Positions 522 through 4,904 of a stretch of DNA of 64,000 bases are shown here, one piece after another. The stretch is from a beta proteobacterium KB13 (GTDB lineage Bacteria; Pseudomonadota; Gammaproteobacteria; Burkholderiales; Methylophilaceae): NCBI GenBank assembly GCA_000156155.1, contig DS995299.1:273827-337826 (forward strand), in the 5' to 3' direction. The notes under the pieces were generated by a model that was not told the DNA's origin, ran no database searches, and saw only the letters and a list, made by a program, of their open reading frames with translations. Position numbers and translations under genes: made by a program. Positions within the stretch are counted from its first letter, which is position 1. Each line of letters starts with the position of its first letter.

Positions 522-1643
522 ATGGTTTCATTTAAAGAATATGAATCTTTCCTCAATCTTCCAAACTCCGTTGACCAATTAATTGGAGATAACTATTTTT
601 GGAATTTAAATCTTTTAAAAGAGTTAGAATCTTCTAAGTCTATCGGAGGCGACACAGGCTGGATAATCAAATCTATATGCATATTTGATCATGAAGAATT
701 GGTGGGTTTTATTCCAATGTTTATTAAGCATCACTCCTATGGAGAGTATGTATTTGATTGGTCATGGGCTGAAGCACATCAACGATTGGGTTTATCATAC
801 TTCCCAAAGCTTTTTATTGGCATTCCATTTTCACCGGTAAATGCAAATAAATTCATTGTCAAAAATGCAAAGTATAGAGATCTTGCAATTGAGTACATTG
901 AAAAGTTCATGGTGAATGAAAATCTATCATCAATTCATTACGTTTTCTCAAGATATGACGATGAATTAAATTATCTTTTTAAAGCCCGAGGTTGGGCAAA
1001 CAGAAAGACTATTCAGTATGTATGGGATAACGAAAATTATTCAAATTTTGATGATTTTTTGAAGATTTTGAGATCGGAAAAAAGGAAAAAAATAAAACAA
1101 GATAGAAAGAAAGTTGCATTAGAAAAAGTATCATTTAAAACCATTACTGGTAATGATATTAATGAGGATTTGATCTCTTTTTTTTACAAGTGTTACTCAA
1201 TGACTTATTATCAGCATGGATCTCCTCCATATATAAATAAATCTTTCTTTGAATCCTATTTTATTAAAAACTCTGAGAGGGTGGTTATTTTTGTAGCATA
1301 CAAAGATCAACTACCAGTTGCCTGTTCTTTCTCATTGCAAGCAAATAATATTCTTTATGGACGATACTGGGGAGCAGTCCAATTTATTCCATCTTTACAT
1401 TTTGAATTAAGTTATTACCAAGGAATTCAATATTGTATTAATAATAAATTTGATAGATTTTATGCTGGCATACAGGGTGAACATAAATTATCTCGAGGCT
1501 TTAATCCTGAATTTTCCGATTCATTTCACTTTCTAAAGCACCCTCAATTTAAAAAGGCAATTGATGATTTTGTTGAAAGAGAAGCAGATCTGAATGAATT
1601 ATATAAAAAAGAACTTGAACAAAGATCTTCTATTAAAAGTTAG
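522..1643 (+). CDS. FemAB/GNAT-like acyltransferase, peptidogalycan biosynthesis family (COG3146-like)
   Basis: A 373-residue soluble protein resembling the FemAB-like / COG3146 family, which has a double GNAT fold and is annotated without firm biochemistry as a peptidogalycan biosynthesis or GNAT acyltransferase. Recognisable family blocks are the N-terminal stretch around residues 10-25 (FLN...NYFWNLNLLKELE), the basic RSEKRKKIKQDRKK segment in the middle, and the C-terminal RFYAGIQGEHKLSRGFNP block near residues 310-330, the most conserved part. No signal peptide or membrane segment is seen. It converges on the waaG-like gene with an 11-bp tail overlap. The substrate cannot be told from sequence. 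Confidence 0.8.
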   Translation: MVSFKEYESFLNLPNSVDQLIGDNYFWNLNLLKELESSKSIGGDTGWIIKSICIFDHEELVGFIPMFIKHHSYGEYVFDWSWAEAHQRLGLSYFPKLFIGIPFSPVNANKFIVKNAKYRDLAIEYIEKFMVNENLSSIHYVFSRYDDELNYLFKARGWANRKTIQYVWDNENYSNFDDFLKILRSEKRKKIKQDRKKVALEKVSFKTITGNDINEDLISFFYKCYSMTYYQHGSPPYINKSFFESYFIKNSERVVIFVAYKDQLPVACSFSLQANNILYGRYWGAVQFIPSLHFELSYYQGIQYCINNKFDRFYAGIQGEHKLSRGFNPEFSDSFHFLKHPQFKKAIDDFVEREADLNELYKKELEQRSSIKS

Positions 1644-2724
1644 TCAGTATTTTTTCATCAAGTTGATAGTTTGTATATTGCTTGTAATCATTATTGATTG
1701 CATACGAGCGATTATTTTTACTTAAAATTCTCTCTAAAGATAAATTTAACTCATGCTGTGAGAATGGTGAATTTAGAACAATTGATTTTTTATCATCCTG
1801 GACGTAAGAGCTGTAACCACAATTATCTGTAGTTATAATTGGTAAGTTTTGAGACAGTGCTTCAATCAGAATCAACCCTGTATTTTCATATCTTGCTGGA
1901 TGTATAAGCGCGCTTGCCTCTCTCATGAGGTGAGGAACATTGTCATGTCCATGAAAGATTTTAATAGAATTCTCAAGATCATAGCGAGCAATCAGTTTTC
2001 GATATGATTTTTCTTTATCTTTACCAAAAATGGCAAAGTTATAATTATTTCTAATTTTCTCTGGCAGGCTCGAGAAAGCAATAATTGCACGATCCAAACC
2101 TTTGGTCTTAAATCCAGAACCAATAAAAATAAGTAATTTGTTATTTTTTTTGAAATATCTATTTATTGACGATATAGATTTACTTGAATCAATGAAAAAA
2201 TTTTTATCAATATAAGGTGGGATGAATATAAATTTACTATGAGGGGTTTTATAAATTGATTTATAAATTTCGTTTTCTTTTTTTGATATAGATAGTATCT
2301 TTGTTTTCGATTTTGGATTAAAAATTTGAAATTCTTCTTCATGAAAAAATTGGTATCTTGGCGATAGGTTTTTTAGAAAGTTTTTATTTTTACTAGCAAA
2401 ACAGGAGTCAGCAGCATAATAAAAATCAAACCCAGAAATTTTACTAAAACTAATTGATATAACATTAGTTTTGTTTTTAATATATTGTGAAACCTTATGT
2501 TTAAATTCTAAGTATCGACGGTAATTAAAAAAACAGTTCGATTGAATAATTTTTACAGAAATATTTTTTTCTTTTGGGTAGTTTCCATCCCAATCCATAC
2601 AAACTATTTCAACTAAATTTTTTTTACATAATGTTTTAGCTAATTGTAATAAATCTCTTTGAGCTCCACCGTATGGAAAATACTTAAAGATGATTAAAAC
2701 AAATTTTTTGGATTCTTTAATCAA
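1633..2724 (-). CDS. waaG: WaaG-like lipopolysaccharide core glycosyltransferase (GT4)
   Basis: A 363-residue GT-B glycosyltransferase. The N-terminal KYFPYGGAQRD block, the FDFYYAADSCFA block near residue 105, GSGFKTKGLDRAI near 200 and the HPARYENTGLILIEALSQNLPII nucleotide-sugar motif match WaaG/RfaG, which adds glucose to heptose II of the LPS core at the inner membrane. The Glu-rich EX7E-type motif typical of GT4 retaining enzymes is present (E...LILIEAL). It lies away from the main LPS cluster in this window and overlaps the upstream DUF2970 gene by 8 bp. Membership of the WaaG group is clear; the exact sugar and acceptor are inferred. Confidence 0.82.
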   Translation of the reverse strand: MIKESKKFVLIIFKYFPYGGAQRDLLQLAKTLCKKNLVEIVCMDWDGNYPKEKNISVKIIQSNCFFNYRRYLEFKHKVSQYIKNKTNVISISFSKISGFDFYYAADSCFASKNKNFLKNLSPRYQFFHEEEFQIFNPKSKTKILSISKKENEIYKSIYKTPHSKFIFIPPYIDKNFFIDSSKSISSINRYFKKNNKLLIFIGSGFKTKGLDRAIIAFSSLPEKIRNNYNFAIFGKDKEKSYRKLIARYDLENSIKIFHGHDNVPHLMREASALIHPARYENTGLILIEALSQNLPIITTDNCGYSSYVQDDKKSIVLNSPFSQHELNLSLERILSKNNRSYAINNDYKQYTNYQLDEKILTNF

Positions 2725-2908
2725 GAATGATTGATACCACAGTTACAATTGAGATTATAAAAATAAGAGCTAACACTAGACCAACGAGCAGATAAGGCAT
2801 AAATCCATTTTTTTCAATAAATTTATCATCATCTTTAAATTTACTATTTTTTTGAATTCCAATAAATGCTGCAAGAACACTTTGGATTATATTAAGCAAT
2901 GTTTTCAT
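2717..2908 (-). CDS. DUF2970 small membrane protein
   Basis: A 63-residue protein with the DUF2970 pattern: an amphipathic N-terminus (LLNIIQSVLAAFIGIQ), a short charged polar middle, and one C-terminal transmembrane helix (about residues 38-62). DUF2970 proteins are widespread small single-pass membrane proteins in Beta- and Gammaproteobacteria with no established function. The stop overlaps the start of the waaG-like gene by 8 bp, so the two are probably cotranslated. The gene begins about 110 bp downstream of the tRNA-Met remnant. Confidence 0.75.
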   Translation of the reverse strand: MKTLLNIIQSVLAAFIGIQKNSKFKDDDKFIEKNGFMPYLLVGLVLALIFIISIVTVVSIILD

Positions 2909-2996
2909 TTAAGTACTAGCATAAGAAGTTAACTATTTAATATACTGAATTATATTATTTTTTCAATAAATATCTGTTAAATTTTAATATTAAGTA

Positions 2997-3067
2997 ATTG
3001 ATTTTAAATGAATTAGTGGTGGTGATGGAGAGACTTGAACTCTCAACCTCAGGATTATGAATCCTGC
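2997..3067. repeat. Direct repeat copy 1 (distal, tRNA-Met 3' half plus flank)
   Basis: This 71-bp segment matches 3680-3750 with a single mismatch (A at 3045, G at 3728). It covers the 3' half of tRNA-Met from the anticodon stem to CCA plus about 20 bp of downstream flank. It lies at the far side of the single methyltransferase gene, in the same orientation as the intact tRNA. This is the geometry left by site-specific integration into a tRNA 3' end. Confidence 0.9.
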
Positions 3068-3085
3068 AGCATAATCAGTTAGTAT
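3017..3085 (-). pseudogene. Decayed partial tRNA-Met copy
   Basis: The 3' half of a tRNA-Met (anticodon arm, variable loop, T arm, acceptor 3' strand and CCA) is preserved and nearly identical to the functional gene at 3700-3776. The 5' half is degenerate: residual D-arm similarity (CTGATTA where the intact gene has CTGGTTA) is visible up to about 3085, but no 5' acceptor strand remains, so no cloverleaf can form. The degenerate part overlaps the last codons and the TGA stop of the methyltransferase gene. Confidence 0.8.
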
Positions 3086-3614
3086 TTTTCTTAGGTTTTA
3101 CAACTAACCAAAAACCATTACCCATCATTTGATGTTCCATTAGGCGAATAATATCAAAATATTTTATAAATTTTTCTAACCACCATGATGTTGGTTCCTG
3201 AATGAGGTGTGCATTTCGCCCATCTGAAAGAACTTTTCCGGCTGGACCCATGTGAACGGTATAAAAACCAATATTTTTTGTTATTAAGGATAACTCCTTA
3301 ATAACATTATCAACAAGATCTGGTTCAATATGTTCTAAGACATCAATACAACACACAAGATCTGCTTCTTTTGGTTCGCCGTATTCTGGAAATGCTGGGT
3401 CATATGGAAAATATTCTTTTGGAGTATTGTTTAATTTTTCAAGAGATTCAAATAACCTTTTTTTACCTGCACCGTAGTCTGTAAGACTATTAATTTTAAA
3501 AACCTTAATTATCTCAGAGACTATTGGGGCAAAATGAGTAGAGGCAATTCCATAATTGGGATTTTCATGTAACTCTTGTTGTAATTTTCTATATTCTTCT
3601 GAAATAGTTTTCAT
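3075..3614 (-). CDS. Class I SAM-dependent methyltransferase-like protein
   Basis: A 179-residue protein with a Rossmann methyltransferase core: SAM-binding motif I at about residues 46-52 (DYGAGKK) and a motif at 88-95 (CCIDVLEH) typical of Methyltransf_11/23 proteins. The order of elements fits a small, complete class I domain without added domains. The substrate is not predictable. It is the only gene between two direct copies of the tRNA-Met 3' half, and its stop codon lies in the decayed tRNA copy. This suggests recent acquisition. A ribosomal or small-molecule methyltransferase role is possible but unsupported. Confidence 0.75.
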   Translation of the reverse strand: MKTISEEYRKLQQELHENPNYGIASTHFAPIVSEIIKVFKINSLTDYGAGKKRLFESLEKLNNTPKEYFPYDPAFPEYGEPKEADLVCCIDVLEHIEPDLVDNVIKELSLITKNIGFYTVHMGPAGKVLSDGRNAHLIQEPTSWWLEKFIKYFDIIRLMEHQMMGNGFWLVVKPKKNTN

Positions 3615-3679
3615 AAAATTATTATACTTTATTATACTTTTTAAAATCTATTAACTAAGATTAATTTTATTTACAAGGG

Positions 3680-3750
3680 ATTGATTTTAAATGAATTAGT
3701 GGTGGTGATGGAGAGACTTGAACTCTCGACCTCAGGATTATGAATCCTGC
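3680..3750. repeat. Direct repeat copy 2 (proximal, inside tRNA-Met)
   Basis: This is the partner of the repeat at 2997-3067, offset by 683 bp. It contains the 3' half of the intact tRNA-Met gene and about 20 bp of its downstream flank. It would be the attachment-site half retained at the tRNA after integration. Confidence 0.9.
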
Positions 3751-3776
3751 GCTCTAACCAGCTGAGCTACATCACC
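3700..3776 (-). tRNA. tRNA-Met (CAT)
   Basis: A 77-nt cloverleaf with encoded CCA. The 7-bp acceptor stem is GGTGATG / CATCACC with discriminator A. The anticodon stem CAGGA / TCCTG encloses loop TTCATAA, giving anticodon CAT, and the T arm is GAGAG-TTCAAGT-CTCTC. The acceptor starts GG/CC, not the initiator-type mismatch, so elongator Met is preferred. A tRNA-Ile2 read through lysidine at C34 has the same anticodon and cannot be wholly excluded. The gene lies upstream of the methyltransferase on the same strand and its 3' half is duplicated at 2997-3067. Confidence 0.93.
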
Positions 3777-3818: not shown

Positions 3819-4904
3819 CTAAACATTAAATTTGAAGTGAATAACATCCCCATCTTTAACTATGTAATCTTTTCCTTCTAACCTTTGCTTTCCTGCTTCC
3901 TTCGATTTTTGCTCTCCTCCAAAATTTATGTAGTCTTCAAAGGAAATTACTTCTGCTTTAATGAAACCTCGTTGGAAGTCAGTGTGGATAACACCAGCAG
4001 ACTCTGGAGCTGTGTAACCATTTTTAATGGTCCATGCTCTTACTTCTTTCACTCCGGCTGTAAAATAAGTTTGTAAGTTTAAAAGGGCATAGGTTTCTCT
4101 AATGATAAGATTTAAACCAGGCTCCTCAACATTTAATTCTGATAAAAATAATTCTTTTTCTTCATCAGTTAAATCTGCAATCTCTGATTCAATTTTTGCG
4201 CATATGGGAATGCATTTTGATCCATTTGTTGCGGCAAAATCCATTACTTTTTGTAAATACTCATTATTTTTAAATCCACTCTCATCAACATTCGCAACAT
4301 ACATGACGGGCTTTAATGTGATTAAGAATAATGGCTGAAGAAGTTTTAAATCATCCTTTTCAAGGCCCATATCTTTTAATAACGTACCTTGATTAAGTTT
4401 TTCCAGAACTAATTCGTATAAATTAAGTTTTTTTAAAGCCTCTTTATCACCTGATTTTGATTTCTTTTTTTCTTTTTCAATGGCTTTTGATACTGACTCC
4501 ATGTCTGCTAAGATCAATTCAGTATTGATGGTCTCTATATCTCCAAGTGGATCAATTTTTCCATCCACATGCACGATGTTTTCATCATCAAAGCATCTGA
4601 CGACATGCAGGATAGCGTTCGTTTCCCTAATATTAGCGAGAAACTTATTTCCTAAGCCTTCTCCTTTTGAAGCCCCAGCCACTAGCCCAGCGATATCAAC
4701 AAACTCAACAATAGCTGGCATAATTTTTTCAGGGTTCACAATAGCTGCTAATTTGTTGAGTCTTAAATCTGGAACTTCAACAATGCCTGAGTTTGGTTCA
4801 ATTGTGCAAAAAGGGTAATTTGCAGCTTCAATTCCAGACTTTGTAATTGCGTTAAATAATGTTGATTTGCCAACATTAGGTAATCCAACTATGCCACATT
4901 TCAT
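3819..4904 (-). CDS. ychF: Ribosome-binding GTPase/ATPase YchF
   Basis: A 361-residue Obg-family P-loop protein of usual length. The G1 motif [14 protein letters not shown] is at residues 7-20, followed by the YPFCTIEPN switch and the [18 protein letters not shown]3 region. NVDE replaces the usual NKxD, consistent with YchF preferring ATP. A helical insert and a C-terminal TGS domain ([10 protein letters not shown] end) follow. YchF/OLA1 binds ribosomes and is linked to translation and oxidative stress. It directly follows pth (4-bp gap) in an order conserved across Betaproteobacteria. Confidence 0.97.

Follow-up and report, generated by a model that had tools for sequence, protein, structure and literature searches.

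The tRNA-Met gene past ychF in OM43-type Methylophilaceae, which are streamlined marine methylotrophs, appears to serve as a site at which very small mobile cassettes, without a recombinase of their own, are exchanged. The locus described here probably belongs to a family of cassettes that are small, integrative and non-autonomous, enter at this tRNA and are moved in trans. An earlier note on this DNA had proposed insertion at the 3′ half of the tRNA gene, and the proposal is supported by empty sites, by alternative cargo and by ends shared between units.

Layout of the locus

The window, by which we mean the whole stretch of 64,000 nucleotides analysed, corresponds to G000:C1:273827-337826 in a genome of a single contig of 1,334,326 bp (G000); window coordinates are contig coordinates minus 273826. 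The layout given in the earlier note was confirmed by coordinates: one intact tRNA-Met, which we take from its sequence to be of the elongator type, is followed by one gene and by a 71-bp copy (2997-3067 against 3680-3750) with one mismatch, in the same orientation and at an offset of 683 bp. The single ORF of at least 80 aa between the copies encodes 179 aa, and the distal copy runs from the 5′ strand of the anticodon stem (GCAGGATTCATAATCC) through CCA and into about 20 bp of flank. A 40-bp pattern taken from the repeat, with up to three mismatches, gave two matches in the window and a mean of 0 in 100 dinucleotide shuffles. As for further copies, which the note had suggested looking for, an 82-bp query matched the whole G000 genome at only these two places (E ≤ 0.001). 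The features are as follows.

3819..4904, minus strand: ychF GTPase gene, a conserved gene of the host located upstream of the tRNA (Pfam and relatives)
3700..3776, minus strand: intact tRNA-Met (CAT), target gene and left, attL-like junction of the unit (ARAGORN and comparison)
3680..3750, minus strand: proximal 71-bp repeat copy, tRNA 3′ half plus 20 bp of flank (repeat comparison); this would be the half brought by the element
3735..3745, minus strand: presumed crossover core ATTCATAATCC, placed by inference, with the anticodon loop TTCATAA at 3738-3744
3641..3679, minus strand: left-end spacer of fixed length between the tRNA flank and the direct repeat, its sequence varying by element type
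3620..3640, minus strand: left-end direct repeat AAAGTATAATAAAGTATAATA with a 10-bp period, arm-site-like, 61 bp past the tRNA CCA (motif scan)
3075..3614, minus strand: cargo, a predicted 179-aa class I SAM methyltransferase (ORF, motifs, phrog match)
2997..3067, minus strand: distal 71-bp repeat copy, attR-like (repeat comparison); this would be the original host tRNA 3′ half and flank
3052..3062, minus strand: core ATTCATAATCC inside the distal copy (sequence)
2909..2996, minus strand: host flank past the distal copy (likeness to the G012 empty site)
2717..2908, minus strand: DUF2970-type small protein, 63 aa, the first conserved host gene past the site (sequence; Pfam match on the G015 counterpart only)

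Empty and filled sites in relatives

A tRNA-Met lies 3′ of ychF in each of an initial set of 20 genus members, G000 among them, and the tRNA part was matched in 27 of the 31 genus genomes, G002, G009, G021 and G028 giving no match. The contigs of G007 and G020 stop 7 and 6 bases past the tRNA, which leaves 25 genomes readable and 6 not. Of the readable sites, 14 have no insert, whereas cargo or the end of an element is present at 11. The small DUF2970-type gene stands directly past the tRNA in 13 of the 14 empty sites (the label comes from a Pfam match on the G015 protein, the remaining genomes being judged by sequence), and at the fourteenth, in G029, a 64-aa ORF loosely resembling it is followed by FemAB. 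Elsewhere in the family, outside this genus, G043, G140 and G142 have the order ychF, tRNA-Met and FemAB with no insert.

The filled sites differ in content. The 179-aa methyltransferase occupies the site in G000, G001 and G003, a 325-aa protein in G006, and an FkbM protein of 217 aa together with a protein of 324 aa in G008; each of these three configurations is followed by its own tRNA copy, as is the G008-type cargo of G011, which is split over two contigs with the middle not covered. The site in G026 holds an FkbM-like gene (judged by eye) before the contig ends, and that in G030 is represented by 86 bases of a left end only. Three further genomes have cargo with neither arm-like repeats nor a second tRNA copy: G018 with three genes, G025 with an FkbM-like gene (by eye) and a gene on the opposite strand, and G027 with the latter gene alone.

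Over the 110 bp past its tRNA, the empty site of G012 is 90% identical to the distal-copy flank of G000 and G003, 88% to that of G001 and 82% to that of G006. Beyond the first 20 bp these values are 88-89% for G000, G001 and G003 and 80% for G006, against 58-64% for the proximal flanks (60% in G000). The far closer likeness to the distal flank indicates that the proximal flank is derived from the element and the distal flank from the host, as site-specific insertion predicts.

The comparison with relatives that the earlier note had proposed thus yielded both empty sites, in G012, 13 other genus genomes and G043, G140 and G142, and alternative cargo between the same repeats, in G006, G008, G011 (on two contigs) and a tandem contig, L121. 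The locus accordingly has the features of a tRNA-targeted additive cassette, a distal tRNA 3′ repeat and empty or alternatively filled sites in relatives. An arrangement common to all relatives, with ancestral divergence and no empty site, which the note had named as evidence against insertion, is not what the genus presents, but it holds in part for the nearest kin: G001 and G003 share the methyltransferase and the tRNA copy, with divergence roughly like that of the genes on either side.

Conserved ends and a tandem contig

The left repeat AAAGTRTAWTAAAGTRTAWTA occurs in 8 places in 7 of the 31 genus genomes, two of them overlapping in G003 and all, positioned by coordinates, past the same tRNA-Met; a reversed-pattern control gave 0, and G026 carries the motif with one mismatch. 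Its first unit begins 61-62 bp past the CCA in nine of ten motif-bearing left ends and at 68 bp in the other, while the spacer before it is alike at 5 to 17 of 32 positions between types. A gapped-pattern scan of the genomes of 84,980 species found seven stretches, six of them at the ychF-linked tRNA-Met; the seventh, in a Flavobacteriales contig, was judged a chance match.

At the right end, G006, G008, G011 and L121 have in common a 144-bp block that is 83-96% alike and closes in a palindrome following the pattern GTRTAWTATWWTAYAC; after it come 43-44 bp and then by the core TTCATAATCC. This core, which sits in the anticodon loop and stem, is common to the right junctions read. The stretch from palindrome to core is 84-91% alike among G006, G008 and G011, and 41-43% in L121. 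With at most four candidates scored per genome, the right block was matched in 5 of 187 family genomes (E ≤ 0.01), three matches being the elements and the other two chance hits of 19-20 bp within other genes; it was absent from G000, G001 and G003 in the same search. The palindrome and block were matched in 15 of 158 loci, and all 15 overlap the right ends of G006, G008, G011 or L121. The blocks of L121 and G006 agree at 138 of 144 positions, and their glycosyltransferase-like cargo is 43% alike.

L121 (JAQBUY010000138.1) is a 3012-bp MAG contig with a low coverage figure. It contains most of a tRNA-Met, an element of three genes together with its right end, a tRNA 3′ half, and then the left end of a second element with the start of an FkbM gene, an array of the kind that repeated site-specific insertion would give. 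Both this tandem and the G030 left end come from MAG contig ends or short pieces and could be assembly errors. We considered whether the left and right motifs pair strictly and dropped the idea, as the first L121 element breaks such a rule. When the right block was examined as RNA, Rfam returned only tRNA- or tmRNA-like pieces and one sub-threshold hit, and its folding (z of −1.8, with 11 of 200 shuffles as good) gave no evidence of structure. A promoter scan of L121 scored 15, not above the 18.4 of the shuffles.

Lambda-type integrases bind attP at direct repeats spaced about 10 bp apart on one arm, and on this likeness we read the left repeat and the right palindrome as putative arm-type sites.

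The shared ends also bear on the alternative that the earlier note had named, a simple tandem duplication in which a gene was captured; here it would have copied the 3′ half of the tRNA once, in this lineage. The window itself, with one gene and one copy common to three close species, could have arisen so. A simple duplication does not, however, explain ends shared by elements with different cargo, and other species have the same structure with other cargo, the shared left repeat and an empty site, which makes this origin very improbable.

Cargo genes

The 179-aa protein contains the segments DYGAGKK and CIDVLEHIEP, which we take to be class I SAM methyltransferase motifs, and both motif regions of that class (motif I, D-x-G-x-G, and motif IV) are present. 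Across seven sequences, D46, Y47, G48 and G50 as well as D91, V92, L93, E94 and H95 are invariant. The protein falls below every Pfam cut-off and matches phrog_24759 ("methyltransferase", E = 1.8e-19). Judged from its sequence, it is a class I SAM methyltransferase. Relatives at 60-68% identity were found in G043, G002, G065 and G072, those of G043 and G002 at sites with neither the tRNA nor the motif. In viral contigs at least 600 stretches match the protein, of which 556 were confirmed, the best 80 reaching up to 63% identity; phage records gave 21 matches, all below 60%. With so many viral and phage relatives, this type of methyltransferase is common in phages. Of two viral-contig relatives inspected, one adjoins a terminase gene and one lies near a ribonucleotide reductase gene; in these stretches (L197 3998-6605 and L200 3319-4516) one relative is followed by an ORF and the terminase, and one stands after a GT8-like gene just under the Pfam cut-off.

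Among the other cargo, FkbM was assigned by Pfam and NCBIfam, and a 229-aa protein matches the methyltransferase family phrog_21658, with Pfam RMNT_CmcI just under the cut-off. The 322-325-aa proteins have no meaningful Pfam match, and their match of PglH type covers 41 residues and is weak (E = 0.0011); for this reason we use the cautious label "glycosyltransferase-like". From the company it keeps and from names, the methyltransferase may modify surface sugars.

The same cargo families were also seen in G004, G027, G146 and G043, with no clear att repeats around them. In G146 and G043, which belong to another genus of the family, one and the same pair of host genes flanks related cargo: methyltransferase-like ORFs with a 327-aa glycosyltransferase-like ORF (L153 5709-7934) and a 180-aa methyltransferase (L105 7385-7927), respectively. 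The pattern suggests a second swap site, one without a tRNA. Just past a tRNA-Leu(caa), G004 has a gene related to the glycosyltransferase-like cargo (L151 6116-7422), and no tRNA copy was found after that gene.

Search for a recombinase

The units read (the window unit, G006, G008 and the first L121 element) have attL-like and attR-like ends and, by ORF reading, no integrase gene. This agrees with the "integrase encoded elsewhere" of the earlier note; on the other hand, a PF00589 profile search of the 31 genus genomes found no helper for the tRNA-Met site, and mobilisation in trans is inferred. G000 has two PF00589 matches, of 301 and 296 aa, which are taken as XerC and XerD from their size and genus-wide presence; the tyrosine recombinase genes that the note had suggested seeking were thus found elsewhere in the genome, but none is tied to the site.

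We inspected 15 regions with extra or partial PF00589 matches, leaving out G011:C54, G024:C12 and G029:C1 near 255,500. Their recombinase genes adjoin a tRNA-Arg (G018, G008), a tRNA-His and a tRNA-Phe (G001) or a tmRNA (G026), lie some 1.5 kb away from another CAT tRNA (G006, L131), or stand by no RNA gene; in none of the 15 regions do they follow the ychF-linked tRNA-Met. The CAT tRNAs in L141 (G020) and L131 (G006), which ARAGORN reports as tRNA-Met, are distinct from the ychF-linked one. G001 offers a conventional island for comparison: in L128 (5665-9517) an integrase gene lies directly past tRNA-Phe, with an exact 48-bp copy of the tRNA 3′ end about 3.8 kb away. Five exact-pattern scans of viral contigs gave 0 hits to the site patterns, and the matches to the right plus left end listed from phages (10 of 33 records) and plasmids (10 of 44) were of the tRNA part or were weak matches to AT-rich left-end sequence.

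These results leave room for another reading, in which the units are what decay has left of a bigger island or prophage that once had an integrase: the integrase and other genes were lost, the ends persist, and nothing is moved now. Integrase genes do stand beside other tRNAs of the genus (tRNA-Arg in G018; tRNA-His and tRNA-Phe in G001), the window copy has no right block, and G018, G025 and G027 show neither arms nor copy. Yet units with different cargo are built on one short plan and have strongly conserved ends, an outcome hardly to be expected if each had decayed independently, and no large relative was seen at the ychF/tRNA-Met site in the genomes examined. We regard such decay as a credible but rather unlikely origin, and continue with mobile cassettes as the preferred reading.

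Proposed mechanism and comparison with known systems

A unit has at its left end a tRNA 3′ half and a short flank, followed 61-62 bp later by the direct repeat of 10-bp period; its cargo is one to three genes (for methyltransferases, FkbM methyltransferase or a glycosyltransferase-like protein), and the best-preserved units have a right end made of the 144-bp block closing in the palindrome, 43-44 bp and the core TTCATAATCC. Some other element or a phage might supply a tyrosine integrase that recombines at the anticodon loop, with the direct repeat and palindrome serving as its arm-type sites, and the half brought by the element would restore the tRNA after insertion. Integron gene cassettes likewise end each in a recombination site, are moved by a recombinase acting in trans and form arrays; here, in contrast, the sites are derived from the tRNA and insertion would restore the tRNA gene. 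No integron integrase was seen, the two PF00589 matches of G000 having the size of XerC and XerD. We tentatively propose, as an idea less likely than not to hold, an integrase-free cassette family with arm sites of its own, for which a single tRNA-Met is the standing acceptor: units would be stacked in tandem, and phage or island integrases would help to carry surface-sugar genes, one to three at a time, from one OM43 species to another, as a tRNA-based counterpart of integron cassettes. Streamlined OM43 genomes must still renew genes under phage pressure, and for this, units that measure only 0.7-2.7 kb, have conserved ends and lack a recombinase would, if mobile, be a cheap route. The fixed ends also provide a sequence tag for counting units in metagenomes and for seeking the helper integrase.

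Within the same family, tRNA 3′ repeats have been described next to islands ranging from 330 bp to 42 kb, with 1 to 63 CDS, tRNA-Met being named as an island border and fGI-3 of OM43 as a "tycheposon" (PMC10872708). That island lies at 0.01-0.1 Mb, contains xerD and ends at glmS (PMC10872708), unlike the ychF/tRNA-Met site, which lies at 0.28-0.30 Mb in G000, G003, G006 and G008 and at 0.93 Mb in G001. A tycheposon has a tyrosine recombinase gene within the element, and the units read here have none. The repeats of fGI-2 in "Ca. Methylopumilus" are the last 20 bp of a tRNA-Lys and are reported for two Methylopumilus species only (PMC10872708). That study also mentions small insertions genome-wide, and the present site may be among them.

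In "Ca. Actinomarinales", tRNA-targeted additive cassettes have partial tRNA repeats, and an island is tied to sugar decoration of the envelope (PMC7771536); those cassettes belong to another phylum and use several tRNAs, and the portions of PMC7771536 drawn on here mention neither arm-like repeats nor a right-end block. CIMEs are bounded by attL and attR, carry no recombinase gene and accrete in tandem at the 3′ end of their target (PMC5704250, in the part used). Units of the window type are likewise att-bounded without a recombinase, a tandem being seen in L121 only; CIMEs are, however, described as decayed ICEs or IMEs, whereas no such parent was found here and complete units measure about 0.7-2.7 kb. 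The ssrA islands of Dehalococcoides stand in tandem at one RNA gene with 20-bp repeats between them, 16 of 31 carry an integration module, and a conserved motif lies beside the repeat; they differ in their serine recombinase modules, their tmRNA site and a size of about 12 kb for vcr islands (PMC3146451, in the part used). The literature searched, which included few subscription papers, offered no account of the ychF/tRNA-Met site or of ends shared in this way, and the conserved ends look like a new feature among known tRNA-targeted cassettes.

Movement, age and selection

The left ends of G030 and G001 are 97.5% identical over 81 bp, with G030 ychF only 71% like that of G000. Between G008 and G011, the left part of the element with FkbM is 97.7% identical, against 90.6% for ychF and 85.3% for the downstream flank; within the 324-aa gene, identity is 72% at the start and 86.7% at the end with the right block. 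The uneven values indicate that exchange and mosaicism both occur.

Such mosaic identity (97.7%, 72%, 86.7%) would also be expected of a homologous recombination hotspot, where ordinary recombination in the conserved flanks exchanges the cargo lying between ychF/tRNA and DUF2970 and the tRNA copy is one further stretch of homology; the cargo of G018, G025 and G027, which has no att remnants, fits as well. Homologous recombination creates neither a tRNA 3′ copy nor fixed spacings nor a tandem, however, and the end shared by G030 and G001 despite the distant ychF of G030 also argues against it. As the account of the whole site we judge it unlikely, although, given the three genomes with neither arms nor copy, some content may arrive or persist in this way.

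Site-specific cassette insertion thus remains our preferred reading, and the window copy would have entered the ancestor of G000, G001 and G003. At fourfold sites, the methyltransferase differs at 10/61 (G000-G001), 1/61 (G000-G003) and 11/60 (G001-G003), and in the same order ychF at 18/129, 10/133 and 24/129 and the neighbouring GT4 glycosyltransferase gene at 21/94, 6/98 and 19/93; FemAB (28/102, 33/100 and 26/100) ranks the pairs differently from these three. The numbers are small, and they fit one insertion before the three species split and not a recent arrival. As it is common to the three genomes, has flank-like divergence and lacks the right block, the window copy is probably an old insertion, fixed and no longer mobile. 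Its methyltransferase has one amino-acid change against 19 third-position changes between G000 and G001, and four against two between G000 and G003; purifying selection is what the first pair points to, and the case rests on that pair.

The GT4 gene (window 1633-2724) lies between DUF2970 and the FemAB-like gene. It is absent there in G018, G025 and G027, and likewise before FemAB in G043, G140 and G142, so that it may be another gain at the locus.
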